From contig NZ_FXAW01000007.1 in the NCBI RefSeq assembly GCF_900177665.1, positions 186,001 through 250,000 on the forward strand: a DNA stretch of 64,000 nt, given 5' to 3'. This DNA is from Marivirga sericea (GTDB lineage: Bacteria > Bacteroidota > Bacteroidia > Cytophagales > Cyclobacteriaceae). Made by a program: the position numbers and the translations under genes. A model generated the notes under the pieces. It was not told the DNA's origin. It made no database searches and saw only the letters and a program-made list of their open reading frames with translations. The stretch's first letter is position 1, and each line of letters begins with the position of its first letter. Positions 13,913 through 21,277 of the stretch are shown in pieces.

Positions 13913-14149
13913 TTTAGATTACTATGCAAAGAATTAGAATTGATTGGCTTATAACTGACAACAGAAAAGAGATTTCAACTTTTGAATGAAGCCCAACTAA
14001 ATTCTGACTCAGGTTTATTCCAGATGTTGTGAGGGCAAAATGTGTTTTAAGAAATCAGTAAAGAGCTGCTCAATAAGTGTATTCTAGAAGCCTCACCTAT
14101 GAAATTGAAAAGACTTTTTTATTCACAAGATTTAAACGTAGAGTTAACC

Positions 14150-14189
14150 GTTTATTAATCGTTCATTAATCGTTTAATTATACGATTAA
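14150..14189. repeat. Tandem 11-bp repeat and dyad upstream of the cassette array
   Basis: GTTTATTAATC and GTTCATTAATC are directly tandem at 14150-14171, followed by a third degenerate unit. TTAATCGT (14166-14173) is inverted as ACGATTAA (14182-14189). The rest of the 405-base gap 13913-14317 shows no gene. The position just before the first cassette boundary recalls an attI or promoter region, but this is inference. Confidence 0.45.
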
Positions 14190-14272
14190 GAACATAAACC
14201 CTAATCTATTTCAATTAAAGCGCCTTTTTTTGTTTATAATTAATATATTAGTAGATTAAAAGATATAAAAGA

Positions 14273-14294
14273 AATAAACGCAATTGCGTTTATT
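14273..14294. promoter_or_regulatory. Perfect 22-bp palindrome next to the first cassette boundary
   Basis: Arms AATAAACGC and GCGTTTATT around a central AATT, with no mismatch. It ends 6 bases before the G of the first GTT boundary (14300) and 23 bases before the dioxygenase start. It could be a repressor operator or part of the recombination site. Confidence 0.5.
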
Positions 14295-14317
14295 CAATTG
14301 TTAGCCTTTATTAAAAA

Positions 14318-14968
14318 ATGACCGAAACAAGAGTGACATATTTGAAGAACGAATTGACTGAAAAAGGATTTTGCCATATCCCAAACAGGAACAAAACGGA
14401 CTTGAAAGAAATAATCTCTCAACTTGGAAATGTCATTAACGAAACAGATGTAATCGCCAATTCAGAGAGTAAAAGTCTTGTTACTTCAGACAAATATCTT
14501 GACTTCCATACCGACAATCATTTAGCGAAATACATTTTATGGCATTGTAGAAAACAAGCCGAAAAAGGTGGACAATCAATGCTATGTGATGCTGAAAAAG
14601 TCTATGCCCAATTGACCGAAGATGAAAAATTGGCTCTTTCAAAAATTCACGTTTACGAACACAAAATGTATCCCGAAAATCGAAATTCAAACCCAATAGT
14701 AAGAGAAGTTGAAGGACAACGTAGATTTTATTATTCATTTTGGTTAGCACGAGAAAAATACCGTGAACTGCCAGTATTTAAAAAATGGCGAGACTTAATA
14801 CAAAATGCAACACACGTAAAATTACGACTTAAAGAAAACGATATTTTGGTCATTGACAATCACCGAATTTTTCACGGCAGAACAGAAATCATTGGCGAGC
14901 GGAACTTAAAACGTTTTTGGATTAATCCTGATTTTCTGCCAACCAAAACTTTGTATTCTCAAACTTAA
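14318..14968 (+). CDS. TauD/TfdA-like 2-oxoglutarate/Fe(II) dioxygenase (cassette gene)
   Basis: 216 residues, short for the family. The iron triad is visible: His64-x-Asp66 in LDFHTDNHL and His186 in NHRIFHGRTEI. LRLKENDILVIDNHRIFHGR is the typical C-terminal strand of TauD and clavaminate-synthase-like hydroxylases. It has no signal peptide. The substrate is unknown; shorter relatives hydroxylate free amino acids or small peptides. It starts 17 bases after the cassette boundary and is followed 12 bases later by the GRDP-like gene, so both travel in one cassette and probably act together. Confidence 0.8.
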   Translation: MTETRVTYLKNELTEKGFCHIPNRNKTDLKEIISQLGNVINETDVIANSESKSLVTSDKYLDFHTDNHLAKYILWHCRKQAEKGGQSMLCDAEKVYAQLTEDEKLALSKIHVYEHKMYPENRNSNPIVREVEGQRRFYYSFWLAREKYRELPVFKKWRDLIQNATHVKLRLKENDILVIDNHRIFHGRTEIIGERNLKRFWINPDFLPTKTLYSQT

Positions 14969-14980
14969 AATTCAATAAAT

Positions 14981-15514
14981 ATGAAAGCACCAGTAATTCA
15001 CACAGCGACAGATTTAATTTATCCAGACCCAATTAGTCCGGAGCGAATTTCCTTTCTAATCAATGTAAAAGGAATTGCCCCAGAAGTGGCTGAATTGGAT
15101 TTTGAATTAATGAAACAGAAGTTACAAGACCATGAAGAAGGAATGGGTTGGACTCCTGAACAAGTTGATAGTGCAGAGATTGAATACAAAAGGTATTTAA
15201 ACCTCTGTATGGTATGTGGCAAAGGAATAGTTCCAAATAAAATAATGGACCAAACTTGGCACTATCACATTTTGGACACAAGGTCTTACCACAAAGACTG
15301 TGACAAATTATTTGGCGGCTATATGCACCACTACCCTTATTTCGGTATGCGTGGCGACCAAGACGCACAAGACCTCAAAAATTCGTTTGAAAATACGAAA
15401 GACTTGTACCTCGACTTGTTTGGAGAAGAAATGGCAAGAGACGAACACAACAAATGTTGGCACGACTGTGAAAACAGATGTTGGAATGCTTGTCCTTCAA
15501 ATAAAATGGAATGA
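14981..15514 (+). CDS. GRDP-like protein with C-terminal CX3CX3CX3C motif (cassette gene)
   Basis: 177 residues with no signal. QTWHYHILDTRSYHKDCDKL (about 91-110) and GGYMHHYP (about 112-119) resemble the WHxH...Y..C...HH core of the glycine-rich-domain (DUF1399/GRDP) family. CMVC sits at 76-79. The C-terminus carries Cys159, Cys163, Cys167 and Cys171, exactly four apart, mixed with Trp and His. That spacing places all four on one helix face, suggesting metal binding or a modification site. It shares a cassette with a dioxygenase. It could be a binding protein, or a substrate of the enzyme; function is not known. Confidence 0.7.
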   Translation: MKAPVIHTATDLIYPDPISPERISFLINVKGIAPEVAELDFELMKQKLQDHEEGMGWTPEQVDSAEIEYKRYLNLCMVCGKGIVPNKIMDQTWHYHILDTRSYHKDCDKLFGGYMHHYPYFGMRGDQDAQDLKNSFENTKDLYLDLFGEEMARDEHNKCWHDCENRCWNACPSNKME

Positions 15515-15520
15515 AAAAAC

Positions 15521-15656
15521 AAAGGCTAACAATGGCTAAGAAAACATAGGGCAGATAAGGCTTTTAGAAAGGTTCGTTCATTTAATAAACTTCGGTTTCG
15601 GTGGACAAGTAATCGCTTCGAAAGCCCTACGTTTCTTAGCCTAAACGTTAGAGTGC
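15521..15656 (+). repeat. attC-like site A
   Basis: The R''-like box AAAGGCTAAC (15521-15530) is complementary to the start of its own cassette (14300-14309). The inner arms are GGCTAAGAAAACATAGGGC (15534-15552) and GCCCTACGTTTCTTAGCC (15624-15641), imperfectly inverted. Five bases later comes the boundary G|TT at 15647/15648. Total length is about 135 bp, within the attC range. Confidence 0.7.
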
Positions 15657-15673
15657 ATCAACCACCACTCAAA

Positions 15674-16321
15674 ATGGGAATTTCCAGAATAATAATTTTA
15701 GCAGTGCTCATTCTTTCAGGATGCAATAATTCAGCGACTGAGGATAAGCAAACTGAAAATGCATTTAATAAGACAAAAGAATCATCTTTAGATGCTCAGT
15801 TTAAAAACAGGACCATTTTAACATTAAGGGATAAGCTGGACGAAAAATATCAACTTGACTCTGTCATGCTTAAGTGGACAGACAGTTATGTTCCTTTCGT
15901 TTATGACGGTGATAGACTGTATTCGGCTTCTCTTTACTCAATTCAACCAAAAGTGAATGATTTTCAAGTAGTCGCAATTAGAACTAATGCTGATCATTGG
16001 AATAGAATCCATTTGCTTACCATAAATGGAGATTCTCAAATTGCCGATAAAGTAATTATTGCTGACGACTGGGGAGAATTGCTTGAGGCTGCTGGCGACA
16101 CTGAAATTGTAGGAAGTACAAACATGTATACTAAAACGATTTCACCTACAGAATATCTTAGAACCAAAATTTATACTACTGAAATCATTGACTATTATTC
16201 TGATAGTACGACCCATGAGATTGACTCGATTACATCCAGAATTGAAATCAAAGATGATGGCCATTTTGAGATTATCCATTTAGACAGTATAAGAACTATA
16301 AAATACTCAGGAATCGAATAA
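15674..16321 (+). CDS. Uncharacterised lipoprotein (cassette gene)
   Basis: 215 residues from ATG 15674. An upstream in-frame GTG at 15653 overlaps the cassette boundary and is less likely. The signal ends in a lipobox (LILSGC), so it is lipid-anchored. The body is rich in Ser, Asp and Thr with beta-strand-like alternation; no domain is recognised. It is the only gene of cassette 2, and the stop is 3 bases before the next AAC-ending box. Confidence 0.7.
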   Translation: MGISRIIILAVLILSGCNNSATEDKQTENAFNKTKESSLDAQFKNRTILTLRDKLDEKYQLDSVMLKWTDSYVPFVYDGDRLYSASLYSIQPKVNDFQVVAIRTNADHWNRIHLLTINGDSQIADKVIIADDWGELLEAAGDTEIVGSTNMYTKTISPTEYLRTKIYTTEIIDYYSDSTTHEIDSITSRIEIKDDGHFEIIHLDSIRTIKYSGIE

Positions 16322-16324
16322 TAC

Positions 16325-16525
16325 GCACTCTAACATCCTGTCATAAATCATGGCTGTTAGTAGGTTATTGTTCCTTCAGCTCTTTGTAGATAGCCCAGCA
16401 ATCCGCAGGATTGCCTTATTGGTGAGAATTAATTTAATAAGCCAATCCTGCGGATTGCCTCGGTAGTTGACTGAAATTTTTATACTTTTAATCAGCCACG
16501 AATTTATACAGTGGCGTTGTGCTTA
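16325..16525 (+). repeat. attC-like site B with a long inner hairpin
   Basis: GCACTCTAAC (16325-16334) pairs with the cassette start at 15647-15656. Arms ATAAATCATGGCTG (16343-16356) and CAGCCACGAATTTAT (16493-16507) follow. A 23-bp inner inverted repeat at 16398-16420 and 16436-16458 (GCAATCCGCAGGATTG core) would form a terminal hairpin. The boundary G|TT is at 16516/16517. The site is nearly repeated at 49255-49372. Confidence 0.7.
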
Positions 16526-16535
16526 ATGTGGAAAA

Positions 16536-17498
16536 ATGATTTGGAGAGATATAATAAACGATTCTGACCTATGGACTGGTTTGAGACTTGAGGTTAAGCA
16601 AGGAGTCTCTGGAGAATATCAGCTTGAATCAGGAACCAATTGCCGTTTTAAATTACATAGCAAGAAGAGTCCCATTCTATGGGGAACTTTCGGTTCGGAA
16701 TATTGGGGAGTATGGATTCTGAATAATAAAGTGGATTGGGAACTGAATGATATGCCAGTTAAACCTATCAATTCTTCTACTATTGAGGAATCAAAAAACG
16801 CGGATTTTTATCCGTTCTGGTCTCGTTTTTTTGCAAAACAATTAAGTAATGGAAGTCAATCTATTTTGTCGAGTTTACTTTGGACTATTACCATTGGAGC
16901 CTCATTTGAAAATAGAATGGATAACACATTAGAATTCATTAATGATATCGACAATGCTTTTGATAAAGAAAACCCAAGATGGGTAGAATGGGACATTGGT
17001 AGATGCGGAAGTATTGTCGCATTAAAAAATGAACCGAATGAAGAAAACGGTAGAGTAAAATGGTTTCGGAAACTGGTACACCAAGAATCCTGTCCACCTG
17101 TATTAGTTTGGTATTTGAGCTGTATTGACGGATATGTTATACTTGATGGTCACTCTCGGCTAAAAGCATTCCAACTTGAATCTGTTCCTGCTAAGTTTTT
17201 GGTGTTGAACTCTGTTATTGAGGAAGAAATTAAAAGAGACCCTAAGGTTCAGGAAAATATTTTGCTTGGGTTGGAGAAAAGGCAAAAAAATCAAGTAAAA
17301 AGAAAAATGAATGTAGAAGAAGTCAATAAACTTTTAATATCTGCATTTGACACTAGACCTTATTGTCGTCCAATAACCAGTGCTAAAGCAAGAAATGGTT
17401 ATGAAGAAAAATGGACTTCAGAAGTACGAGAGCAGGGTGTTAAACTAAATCTGAACTCTGATATCATTGAGGATATGATTAAAAGAATAGAAAATTAA
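16536..17498 (+). CDS. ParB-like nuclease-fold protein (cassette gene)
   Basis: 320 residues, cytoplasmic. YVILDGHSRLKAF around residues 200-212 matches the DGHxRxxA phosphate-binding loop of the ParB/sulfiredoxin fold; the preceding PPVLVWYLSCI fits the strand before it. The N-terminal 180 residues are Trp-rich and unrecognised, and the C-terminus is Lys/Arg-rich. Such domains occur in partition proteins, CTPases, nucleases and phage or defence proteins. Which applies here is open. It is the only gene of cassette 3, starting 19 bases after the boundary. Confidence 0.6.
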   Translation: MIWRDIINDSDLWTGLRLEVKQGVSGEYQLESGTNCRFKLHSKKSPILWGTFGSEYWGVWILNNKVDWELNDMPVKPINSSTIEESKNADFYPFWSRFFAKQLSNGSQSILSSLLWTITIGASFENRMDNTLEFINDIDNAFDKENPRWVEWDIGRCGSIVALKNEPNEENGRVKWFRKLVHQESCPPVLVWYLSCIDGYVILDGHSRLKAFQLESVPAKFLVLNSVIEEEIKRDPKVQENILLGLEKRQKNQVKRKMNVEEVNKLLISAFDTRPYCRPITSAKARNGYEEKWTSEVREQGVKLNLNSDIIEDMIKRIEN

Positions 17499-17499
17499 C

Positions 17500-17570
17500 T
17501 AAGCACAACAATGGCTAAAAAATCATAGCTGCCCTGCGGGACAGCAACGCTTTTTAGCCGAACCGATATC
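17500..17570 (+). repeat. attC-like site C with altered crossover base
   Basis: TAAGCACAAC (17500-17509) pairs perfectly with the cassette start at 16516-16525. GGCTAAAAA (17513-17521) is inverted as TTTTTAGCC (17551-17559), around a GCTGCCC/GGGACAGC hairpin. Five bases later, where GTT is expected, the sequence is GAT (17565-17567). At about 70 bp it has the length of a short attC. The changed crossover may mark a decayed or terminal site. Confidence 0.6.
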
Positions 17571-17610
17571 TAATCTTTCAATAAATATTTCCATAACATA
17601 CTAACTTAAA

Positions 17611-18774
17611 GTGATAAGCTCTTTTTCAAATAAGACAAGATTGCACGGACTTGATAATCTTAGAGCAATAGCAATAATAATTGTAATGATTTTTCACTAT
17701 TACCCAGCTCCAGAATGGCTTGAACCTATTGCGAAAATTGGTTGGTCAGGTGTAGATTTGTTTTTTGTATTAAGTGGATTTCTAATTGGGTCTCAGCTAC
17801 TAAATGAGTTCAAAAAAAACAATAACATATCATTTAGAAATTTCTACGTAAAGAGATTTTTTAGAATTATTCCAACCTACTTAGTGGTATTACTTATATA
17901 TTATTTACTTCCAAATCTTAGAGAAGGATCTGGTATGGCACCACTTTGGAAATATTTAACATTCACACAAAATATAGGATTTGATGTTGCAAATTCAAGC
18001 TCATTTTCTCACGCTTGGTCGCTTTGTATTGAAGAACAATTTTACCTTTTACTTCCCATCTTAATTTTGAGCCTTTTTGCAATAAGACTTCAAACCAAAG
18101 CTGGATATATAATAATAGGACTTGTAATTTTAGGAATACTACTTAGGGTTTATAATTGGAACGAGTATGTCCAACCGCTTATTGATATTAATAAGGGAAG
18201 GAAAATGGCTAGAAGTTTTTTTGAAAACATTTATTACCCAAGCTATAATAGAATGGATGGCTTGCTGGTTGGAATTAGCGTTGCTGCCATTTTTACTTTC
18301 AAACCAAAAATTAAACAACTATTAATAAATAAAGGTAACTACTTTCTTCTCTTAGGAATTGTTCTGTTTTTACTGGCATTTCAGATCAATGAAAATCTAA
18401 TTTCATATAACAATGCTGTTTATGGTTTTCCATTAATTTCGATTGCATATGGATCTATGGTAATAGCTGCTTTAAGTCCAGTTTGTTTTCTTTATAAGCT
18501 TAAATCTAAGATTACCTTCTTTATAGCAACACTATCATACTCCATCTATCTGACTCACAAATTAATATTTCATATAATAAAAAGTGAAATCATAAATCAT
18601 GAATTAGACCTAGATCCAAATTTAACTTTTGGAATATGTATGTTTACTGCAGTAATTATTGGTTTACTTCTGCACCTTACAATCGAAAGATCATTTTTAA
18701 AACTTAGAGAGAGAATATTAGATGGTAATAAAAAAAGAAAGAAAAAATTAAGCTCTAACACCAACTATGGATGA
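17611..18774 (+). CDS. Acyltransferase family 3 (OafA-like) membrane protein
   Basis: 387 residues with about ten membrane helices. The opening RLHGLDNLRAIAIIIVMIFHYY contains the family's catalytic-region histidine, and WSGVDLFFVLSGFLIG and HAWSLCIEEQFYLLLP are strong acyltransferase 3 motifs. Such proteins O-acylate surface polysaccharides or peptidoglycan. The start is GTG 17611; no ATG lies at the right place. The last residues (SSNTNYG) are encoded inside the next attC-like site, so gene and site have become joined. Possibly a fourth cassette gene. Confidence 0.85.
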   Translation: MISSFSNKTRLHGLDNLRAIAIIIVMIFHYYPAPEWLEPIAKIGWSGVDLFFVLSGFLIGSQLLNEFKKNNNISFRNFYVKRFFRIIPTYLVVLLIYYLLPNLREGSGMAPLWKYLTFTQNIGFDVANSSSFSHAWSLCIEEQFYLLLPILILSLFAIRLQTKAGYIIIGLVILGILLRVYNWNEYVQPLIDINKGRKMARSFFENIYYPSYNRMDGLLVGISVAAIFTFKPKIKQLLINKGNYFLLLGIVLFLLAFQINENLISYNNAVYGFPLISIAYGSMVIAALSPVCFLYKLKSKITFFIATLSYSIYLTHKLIFHIIKSEIINHELDLDPNLTFGICMFTAVIIGLLLHLTIERSFLKLRERILDGNKKRKKKLSSNTNYG

Positions 18775-18914
18775 ATGGGGTTTCATCAGAAAGGAAAGTT
18801 TGAGGCACTTAGAAAGTCCACCACAAGTTTTAAATTAAATTAAGGCTTGGCTATGTGCGAGACGAGAGTTTAGTGCTTTCTAATCCCCACTTATCATAGC
18901 CGAGCCGTCAGCGC
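18751..18914 (+). repeat. Degenerate attC-like site D
   Basis: CTCTAAC (18753-18759) plays the AAC-ending box. CTATGGATGAATGGGG (18765-18780) is imperfectly inverted as CCCCACTTATCATAG (18886-18900). Five bases after the arm's AGCC comes GTC (18907) in place of GTT. The interior (GAAAGTCC-CCACAAGTTTTAAATT and GCTATGTGCGAGACG parts) recurs at 48479-48540. The remaining bases to 19088 show nothing clear. Confidence 0.5.
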
Positions 18915-19088
18915 ACATTTAAAAAATTCTACTTCCTCAAAAAAATCTGTTCGCTAGTCAGTAAATTTTGTTCGATAACGAACAGTTCGGATTCCCTAAT
19001 ATGGCCCTATGCAAAGAAAACACAGTTTACTGTTTTTGGCATGCATATTGAAAAAAGTTAGTTAAGCTCTTTAACTAATTTAGTTGCT

Positions 19089-19682
19089 ATGAAAAAAGTT
19101 CTATTATTAATTATTACTTTCTACTTATCTACTGCCTACTGTGTTGCGCAAGACAGTCCTTCTCTAGAAAAGGATGAGGTTGTAAAAGAAATTGCCCTTC
19201 CCTCTTTTAATACTGTTGCAGTCAAAGGAGGTGGAGATTATTACTTTCACTACTCATCCAATACCAAAGTAGAGATAAAAGGAGCCGATTCCTGTGTGGA
19301 GAGTATCGGAGTTATAGTGTCATCAAAGATTCTTAGCCTAAACCCCTTGGGAGGATTTTCAGAGAATTGTAGAGTTGAGATTCATATTTTTATGCCTAAC
19401 ATTAGAGAAATTCAGCAGAATGGTGGAGGTCGAATAGTCGTAAATGAAGGCTTTGCACCTGTGGATAAATTCAAATGCACTCTAGATGGAGGTGGTATCC
19501 TAATCATGACATCATTAAAGGTGGATTCTCTTCTTGCTTTTATTGAAGGGGGAGGAGAAATCTCTGCACGGGTAAACAAAAAGATTCACGGAAAAATAAG
19601 AGCAGGGGGTGTGATTTCCTACCAGGGTGACCCTCTCATTGAGACTGACATTGTAGGTGGTGGAACGATAAAAAGAAAATAA
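19089..19682 (+). CDS. DUF2807 (GIN domain) exported protein
   Basis: 197 residues with a signal peptide ending CVAQ. Short beta repeats with glycine turns (VKGGGDYYFHY, LDGGGILIM, IEGGGEISA, VGGGTIKRK) are characteristic of the putative auto-transporter adhesin head GIN domain, a right-handed beta-helix-like surface domain common in Bacteroidota. It is one base from the next gene, so they are co-transcribed. A paralogue lies at 30505. It is probably cell-surface or periplasmic; the ligand is unknown. Confidence 0.82.
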   Translation: MKKVLLLIITFYLSTAYCVAQDSPSLEKDEVVKEIALPSFNTVAVKGGGDYYFHYSSNTKVEIKGADSCVESIGVIVSSKILSLNPLGGFSENCRVEIHIFMPNIREIQQNGGGRIVVNEGFAPVDKFKCTLDGGGILIMTSLKVDSLLAFIEGGGEISARVNKKIHGKIRAGGVISYQGDPLIETDIVGGGTIKRK

Positions 19683-19683
19683 T

Positions 19684-20355
19684 ATGAAAATTAGGTATTT
19701 AATTCTTACAGCTTCTGTTGGCATCATCTTTTTTAGCTCAGCTTGGCATTCAGATAAAAGAAATCTAAAAATCCACTTTGGAGTATACACTGACCCTAGA
19801 GATAATCACCGTTACCAAACAGTGAAAATTGGAGAACAGGAGTGGATGGCAGAGAATTTTGCCTATCTGCCATATGTCTGCCCAGTGGACTCTGTTGAGT
19901 GTGGAGTATGGGTTTATAATTACAGTGGCACGGATATTTCAGATGCTAAAGAAACTTTGGAGTACAAAAAATTTGGCGGCCTATATAGTTGGAAGTCTGC
20001 ACTGGAGTTAGCACCGGAGGGCTGGCACTTACCAAGCGATAAAGAATGGAAAGAACTGGAAAGGCATCTTGGGATAGCGGATTCAGATATAGATAGTAAG
20101 ACATGGAGAGGAAAAAGTAATGAAGCCAATCGGTTAAAGGAAAAAGGAGATACGGGCTTGAAGGTGACTTTTGGTGGCTGGAAGACAGATTACGGTAAGT
20201 TCAATTTCATTGAAGAGCATGCAAATTTTTGGTGTTCTACCGAAGTAGATAAAGGCAGAGGCTTTGAACGCCTGATTGGAGTGAATAATGGAAAAATAGG
20301 GAAAGCAGCAGGGAATAAGGGTTGTGGCTTTAGTGTAAGATACATAAAGAATTAA
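19684..20355 (+). CDS. FISUMP-domain exported protein
   Basis: 223 residues with an N-terminal hydrophobic signal. DPRDNHRYQTVKIGEQEWMAEN, YSWKSALELAPEGWHLPSDKEW, and the C-terminal GCGFSVRYIKN are the hallmarks of the Fibrobacter succinogenes major paralogous (FISUMP) domain, a C-type-lectin-like extracellular module. It starts one base after the GIN-domain gene, so the pair likely forms a small surface-protein operon. Confidence 0.85.
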   Translation: MKIRYLILTASVGIIFFSSAWHSDKRNLKIHFGVYTDPRDNHRYQTVKIGEQEWMAENFAYLPYVCPVDSVECGVWVYNYSGTDISDAKETLEYKKFGGLYSWKSALELAPEGWHLPSDKEWKELERHLGIADSDIDSKTWRGKSNEANRLKEKGDTGLKVTFGGWKTDYGKFNFIEEHANFWCSTEVDKGRGFERLIGVNNGKIGKAAGNKGCGFSVRYIKN

Positions 20356-20413
20356 AAATGTAACAAAATACATTTAGTGGTCACAAAAGGGGGTCGGAGT
20401 TAACTGAGATAAA

Positions 20414-21133
20414 ATGACAAATACAAATCAAAATACCATTAGCAAAACAAAGACAATCCTTGTTTTTATTTGTACTATCATTATTGGCTATGCTCTTTTC
20501 TTTATTCCGGATATATTCTTTGGAGTTACAAAAATCAATGGTGGAAAGATTGGCATTAATTTACTATTCATTGCTTTATTTCAATTCTTATCAATTATTA
20601 CCTTGCTCTATGTTTCTCTAAGAATTTTAAAGAAAGACTTTAGCTATATCGGTCTTCGGTTTGTAAATATAAAAAATGATATTTTCTTAGGTCTTATTTT
20701 CGGTCTTTTATGGACAATACTTCAATTTGCTCTTATAATTCCAAATACAGGTGGGATAAACCGTCCAGACATTCAAGGAATGTTGGCTATGTACGATGGG
20801 ACATTAATAGGAATATTGTCATTTATTGCATTAGGGGTGATTGGCGGTGGAATTACAGAGGAACTCTTTAACAGAGGATTTTTTATCAACGTACTTAAAG
20901 AGGCATTTAAAAATCCAAAGATAGGACTATGGTTTTCTATTATTTTATCTGTAGCGCTTTTTTCACTCGGTCATATGCCAAGCACCTCATTGGATTGGTT
21001 CGACATTCTTATTCCGACTGTGATGTACACTTTACTATTCGTAAAAACCAAAAAATTGACTGCCTCAATAGTAGCTCACGGAATTTACAATATAGCTGCA
21101 ATTATTTTGACTTATTATCTATACTTCAACTAA
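20414..21133 (+). CDS. CPBP-family intramembrane metalloprotease
   Basis: 239 residues with about seven membrane helices. The three motifs are present: Glu149-Glu150-x3-Arg154 (TEELFNRG), His187 (SLGHMPS) and His222-x3-Asn226 (AHGIYN). Family members include Abi proteins, bacteriocin self-immunity proteins and Rce1-type prenyl-protein proteases. No peptide gene or partner is adjacent, so the substrate is unknown. Confidence 0.88.
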   Translation: MTNTNQNTISKTKTILVFICTIIIGYALFFIPDIFFGVTKINGGKIGINLLFIALFQFLSIITLLYVSLRILKKDFSYIGLRFVNIKNDIFLGLIFGLLWTILQFALIIPNTGGINRPDIQGMLAMYDGTLIGILSFIALGVIGGGITEELFNRGFFINVLKEAFKNPKIGLWFSIILSVALFSLGHMPSTSLDWFDILIPTVMYTLLFVKTKKLTASIVAHGIYNIAAIILTYYLYFN

Positions 21134-21277
21134 AAACGTTTGTAGACTTAAGAGGTATAAACGTAATGCAGGCTGAAGTTCTAAATTAGGACGAATTGCG
21201 AATTAACGAACTTATCGGCAAACCTGAACCGAAGTGCTCCCAATCACAAACTACGTTTAAACTTGCCCTTAATACAT

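Follow-up and report, generated by a model that had tools for sequence, protein, structure and literature searches.

The stretch of DNA analysed here (the window; 64,000 nucleotides) comes from a Marivirga-like genome (Bacteroidota, Cytophagales; the nearest named genomes are those of Marivirga) and contains, at 14301-17565, three consecutive cassettes of the integron type, each with complementary ends and an attC-like hairpin (Table 1). The three exact 10-base complementary pairs described in the initial annotation are all present: GTTAGCCTTT at 14300 is matched by AAAGGCTAAC at 15521-15530 in cassette 1, GTTAGAGTGC at 15647 by GCACTCTAAC at 16325-16334 in cassette 2, and GTTGTGCTTA at 16516 by TAAGCACAAC at 17500-17509 in cassette 3. 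The placement of the genes 17-26 bases past each boundary and in one direction holds as well, the measured distances being 17, 26 and 19 bases for cassettes 1, 2 and 3, with the same orientation throughout. By chance, single complementary 10-mer pairs are frequent (on average 5.55 in a shuffled 64 kb sequence); links joining pairs end to end number 2 in the window, whereas 100 order-2 shuffles averaged 0.04 and never exceeded 1.

Table 1. Features of the cassette array and its surroundings (positions in the window; a vertical bar marks a crossover or unit edge).
Feature	Position	Strand	Description
Genome-specific block	13950..21270	.	Between SSF symporter gene and MGMT-like gene; blastn against same-genus loci L113-L120
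Palindrome remnant	14133..14189	+	Resembles the palindrome that immediately precedes the integrase gene in intact platforms; moderate
GAT TAA	14254..14259	+	Possible last codon and stop of a deleted integrase; 40 nt before the crossover G
attI-like site	14273..14300	+	Hairpin AATAAACGC-AATT-GCGTTTATT, then CAATTG|TT; design as behind the integrases of the family
Cassette 1	14301..15647	+	TauD-type dioxygenase 14318-14968 (Pfam TauD 6.3e-21), 177-aa protein 14981-15514, attC1 15521-15647; complementary ends
Cassette 2	15648..16516	+	Putative lipoprotein 15653-16321, attC2 16325-16516; complementary ends
Cassette 3	16517..17565	+	320-aa protein 16536-17498, attC3 17500-17565; complementary ends
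Worn unit 4	17566..18906	+	Acyltransferase 17611-18774 (Pfam Acyl_transf_3 5e-30), attC4 ~18752-18906
CAAX-protease gene and degenerate attC-like tail	20414..21265	+	Gene 20414-21133 (Pfam Rce1-like 7.6e-17), tail from ~21154 onwards

The initial annotation also placed an imperfect inverted repeat after each box, ending just before the next GTT. Folding of the bottom strand gives z values of -2.25 (attC1), -6.99 (attC2) and -3.03 (attC3) against shuffled sequences, and the predicted attC-like fold is thus present on that strand; at 17565, however, the claim needs qualifying, since the right edge of cassette 3 reads G|ATATC and not G|TT, and attC3 has lost its outer pairing on the right side. 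An Rfam scan of the window returned nothing at gathering thresholds, and a first sequence pattern (RYYYAAC...) was discarded, its sole match being unrelated. Sites of the attC2 type carry a long, near-perfect inner inverted repeat (CAATCCGCAGGATTG; 16398-16459 in the window) that is conserved in 20-odd copies.

The array exceeds its first description on both sides, by the attI-like site on the left and by attC4 and the degenerate attC-like tail on the right. Beyond cassette 3 the unit ends have lost the GTT as well; in unit 4, GTC replaces it at attC4, and the unit start no longer matches the unit end; nevertheless, 18765-18915 aligns to a Marivirga attC as far as and across its boundary. The tail behind the CAAX-protease gene gives attC alignment scores of 43-49 (shuffle maxima 23-24). 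Because these alignments lie beyond 17565, the array probably once extended to ~21.27 kb and has since been wearing down; 17565 itself had been considered as the outer edge and was dropped when attC4 was discovered. No integrase gene is present within the stretch of the window that was read, and attC1 to attC4 lie within 14.3-18.9 kb, so that the window shows the features that define a CALIN (at least two attCs less than 4 kb apart and no nearby IntI).

The left edge resembles the insertion site of an integron platform. In most intact platforms of the Marivirga type, 37-46 nt past the integrase stop codon comes a hairpin with arms of 8-12 bp and then G|TT; the window retains the attI-like site while the gene is absent, and it has TATTCAATTG|TTAGC in common with one such platform (G004_b). 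An attI adjoins an integrase and carries a G|TT crossover, and this arrangement is found in these platforms, with the position of the crossover deduced from the cassette ends. Upstream, 14133-14189 gives local alignments above shuffles to seven platforms (C13, C4, G004_b, G005, G006, G009 and G003_b), in which the aligned palindrome occupies the same place relative to the integrase. The spacing of the GAT TAA fits the intact platforms, weak evidence on its own. Only ~70 bases separate the palindrome from this possible stop codon where an integrase would need more than 1 kb, which points, with moderate support, to deletion of the integrase gene from the platform. The window would thus most likely carry an integron platform minus its integrase, the remnants of attI and palindrome being short. 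In the platforms elsewhere in this genome a small divergent ORF with a zinc-ribbon-like start lies upstream of the integrase (L010:14481-14858, and in the same place on C4 and C7); it may be a regulator or a part of the platform, its Pfam matches being sub-threshold only.

Variation among relatives, which the initial annotation had proposed as a check, was found at the level of the block: the whole of 13950-21270, including the flanks inside it, is missing from eight other Marivirga species, in which the SSF symporter and MGMT-like genes are ~30 to 970 bp apart. Because of this absence the block is most simply explained as a gain in this lineage. In three Marivirga species (L114, L115 and L116) the same gap holds two genes that look like a toxin-antitoxin module; the gap may therefore be an insertion hot spot. 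A second cassette cluster, also with no integrase, lies on the minus strand of the window's contig ~200 kb from the window array (G000 C24:713-5622; L019), and contains an attC2-type site and a cassette start, GTTGTATTTA, that occurs also in C4 and C7.

No protein of this genome (99.97% complete) exceeds the cut-off of TIGR02249, the integron integrase model, and none does so in 13 other genomes with pattern matches; the search for intI suggested by the initial annotation was to that extent negative, and it led instead to further cassettes, in arrays headed by a different recombinase. The best TIGR02249 matches in the genome are three recombinases of about 377-390 residues, on contigs C13, C4 and C7. 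The two that were scanned whole score 191 and 205 bits (array-heading recombinases 191-215 where measured), against a cut-off of 265. The C13 recombinase heads same-strand cassettes linked end to end from 216980 to 224391, with more attCs to ~239 kb. The C4 recombinase is followed by an attI-like hairpin and then by four cassettes, read by eye, up to the contig end; the C7 recombinase has an attI-like hairpin near a contig end, where the sequence stops before any array could show. Five other loci in draft genomes likewise break at most 2 kb after the integrase (L207, L214, L216, L229 and L233, besides G000 C7), probably through repeated cassettes and attCs defeating assembly; given such breaks, cassette arrays are likely to be undercounted.

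These recombinases are XerA/IntI-like and lack the I2 insertion (~42 residues). The Arg of box I and that of box II are 92-97 residues apart in all family members measured, versus 134 in IntI1, IntI2 and six IntIs of Bacteroidota, and a phmmer alignment to the IntI4 structure shows the same gap. An IntI has the I2 domain and scores above the TIGR02249 cut-off; the present proteins do neither. All aligned members retain the catalytic R, K, H, R, H and Y. Pfam identifies Phage_integrase and Phage_int_SAM_4, the best NCBIfam family is NF040815 (product name 'site-specific tyrosine recombinase/integron integrase'), and the predicted structure (mean pLDDT 80, pTM 0.56) best matches XerA and IntI4. 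Many but not all members carry an N-terminal domain of ~100 residues, which the G033 protein lacks. In a quick tree the IntIs form one clade (SH-aLRT 99) apart from this family, and several array-free recombinases group apart; a clean division into clades with and without arrays was not upheld (18 changes in the quick tree, with 43 of 500 shuffles as low).

Family members are present in 117 of the 392 Bacteroidota genomes sampled, and part of them head arrays. Forty neighbourhoods were fetched, and in the 35 with enough downstream DNA (related species included, so that these are not fully independent) at least two linked cassettes follow on the same strand in 14 and at least one in 18; the controls, 120 strands flanking an unrelated gene and 35 shuffles, gave none at all (p 8e-11). 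The family is mixed, with some members having no detectable array. A Persicobacter plasmid relative has no linked cassettes nearby, and phage records yielded distant relatives only, none covering 80% of the recombinase. Canonical IntI above the cut-off occurs in 107 of the 392 genomes, with only one listed in the window's own class.

The attC sites of the window have relatives in such arrays. AttC1 shares 92.7% identity across 123 bp with a site (L154) from a different genus of the family, and attC2 is 86-95% identical to attCs of the C4 and C13 arrays and of most other Marivirga arrays. A strict pattern search of 390 genomes of the order recovered almost unchanged copies of attC3 from other genera and families; the 20-kb stretches around these matches contain further attC-like sites, whereas shuffled sequence gave none, and at one locus (G033, L153) ~10 attC-like sites stand in a row behind a tyrosine recombinase. 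Among several families of the order, attC3-type sites retain 82-94% identity (L158, L166, L164, L155, L156 and L163), which suggests that cassettes or attCs were exchanged between distant genera. Whole-cassette sharing is seen within the genus: two Marivirga species share a 694 bp cassette (99.2% identity) whose neighbours differ on either side, and the C4 array of this genome shares a second cassette (90.6% identity) with G004, again among different neighbours. In both, the matching sequence ends exactly at the cassette boundaries or no more than a dozen bases from them. This evidence for movement as units comes from other arrays in the genus and not from the window's own cassettes, whose proteins have no counterparts in the fetched arrays except for a weak 35% match of the 177-aa protein.

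In the stems of 66 non-redundant attCs, mismatches of the transition type favour a G-T wobble on the bottom strand, with A-C on the top strand, by 110 to 34 (p 1.5e-10); in a small control set of repeats the bottom- and top-strand wobble types numbered 8 and 9. This bias points to the folded form of the bottom strand as the target of selection, in line with known integrons, and together with the folds gives the sites the paired outer and inner boxes and the bottom-strand fold that characterise an attC. Covariation within the attC2 family is confined to 1 of 47 pairs with two-sided change, the variation being too little. A single-base bulge on a fixed attC arm was considered as a general feature and proved not to be general.

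It has to be considered whether ordinary inverted repeats, such as terminators or repeat elements, or chance alone could imitate such an array. Although single complementary pairs are common in shuffled sequence, linked units were missing from all 120 control strands and all 35 of their companion shuffles, cassettes are common to species up to their boundary and homologous attCs occur in integrase-headed arrays, which leaves this explanation with a negligible probability. A more serious alternative is that the array is a CALIN with no platform ever present here, formed when cassettes from the integrons of this genome were inserted off target at a secondary site (attG, GWT-type). The window has no integrase while three integrases exist elsewhere in the genome, the right edge G|ATATC would fit a GWT site, and the other cluster on the same contig is likewise integrase-less; nonetheless, the attI design and matching spacing of the left edge, the platform palindrome upstream of it and the continuation of cassette-derived sequence past 17565 make this origin unlikely.

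A different objection concerns the enzyme, namely that a canonical IntI with I2 was missed and serves the arrays while the I2-less recombinase is a bystander. In the published account, tyrosine recombinases turned into integron integrases by gaining I2, on which the bulged bases of attC dock; cassette capture is said to need it, and other proteins to lack it (PMC7790495). Canonical IntI, moreover, is common in other classes of Bacteroidota. Yet none exceeds the cut-off in this nearly complete genome or in the 13 others, the window's class has the single match, and it is the I2-less gene that heads arrays at a fixed distance from attI; a missed IntI is accordingly judged very improbable. The true enzyme could also be a recombinase outside the families searched.

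With good confidence, then, the window is regarded as carrying an integron platform without its integrase, comprising the palindrome, the attI-like site, three intact cassettes and worn units to ~21.27 kb, and belonging to a class that occurs in Marivirga and other Bacteroidota and is headed by an I2-less recombinase. Of the initial reading as a cassette array without a nearby integrase, the array is upheld by the homologous attCs in integrase-headed arrays, the cassette-exact sharing and the fold, while the attI-like edge, the platform remnant, the extent to ~21.27 kb and an integrase other than intI had been missed; related genomes do carry a site-specific recombinase that heads such arrays. 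In intact members the XerA/IntI-like recombinase gene is followed by a hairpin-type attI with G|TT, behind which lie cassettes of the same orientation. In the proposed mechanism, the attC bottom strand would fold into a hairpin and the recombinase would join it, between G and TT, to attI or to a second attC, so that cassettes could be captured, excised and exchanged. That the system works like an integron is well supported by its anatomy; the I2-less recombinase as the acting enzyme, and the recombination chemistry, are proposed from sequence comparison. The window array probably no longer changes, unless it is acted on in trans by one of the three other integrases of the genome.

No report of I2-less integrons was found in open-licence papers (preprints lay outside the search), and on present evidence we read them as a new, widespread variant of the integron. 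The broader proposition, that they represent a widespread second Bacteroidota lineage whose recombinase acts on folded attC without the I2 helix, either as a precursor of IntI or with an independent origin, is favoured by a narrow margin. IntegronFinder 2.0 reported integrons as rare in Bacteroidetes and named a single complete one in Bacteroidetes proper, that of Salinibacter ruber (PMC9024848). An intI survey, for its part, selected for the additional domain (PMC2426708), so that I2-less systems would have been overlooked despite the occurrence of the family in 117/392 genomes. Arrays headed by I2-less recombinases make the I2 requirement directly testable.

The system shares with canonical integrons the complementary cassette ends, the G|TT boundary, the bottom-strand-biased attC-like hairpins, an insertion site adjoining the integrase, cassette genes in one direction and whole-cassette exchange; it differs in that its recombinase has no I2 (92-97 versus 134 residues) and falls outside the IntI clade, its attI is of a hairpin type and its integrase is directed toward attI. 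Transcription of the integrase toward attI, in the direction of the cassettes, is also described for the chromosomal integrons of Treponema (PMC3607928), which belong to another phylum and are intI-based, a distinction drawn from their description and not from integrase sequence. Taken alone the window fits a CALIN, with several attCs less than 4 kb apart and no integrase, but an attI-like site and a remnant of the platform appear to survive in it, and the integrases that match it do not belong to IntI. In sequence model and fold alike, the recombinase comes closest to XerA/XerC/XerD (NF040815, 4a8e, 5hxy), from which it is set apart by an often present extra N-terminal domain of ~100 residues and by the cassette array downstream.
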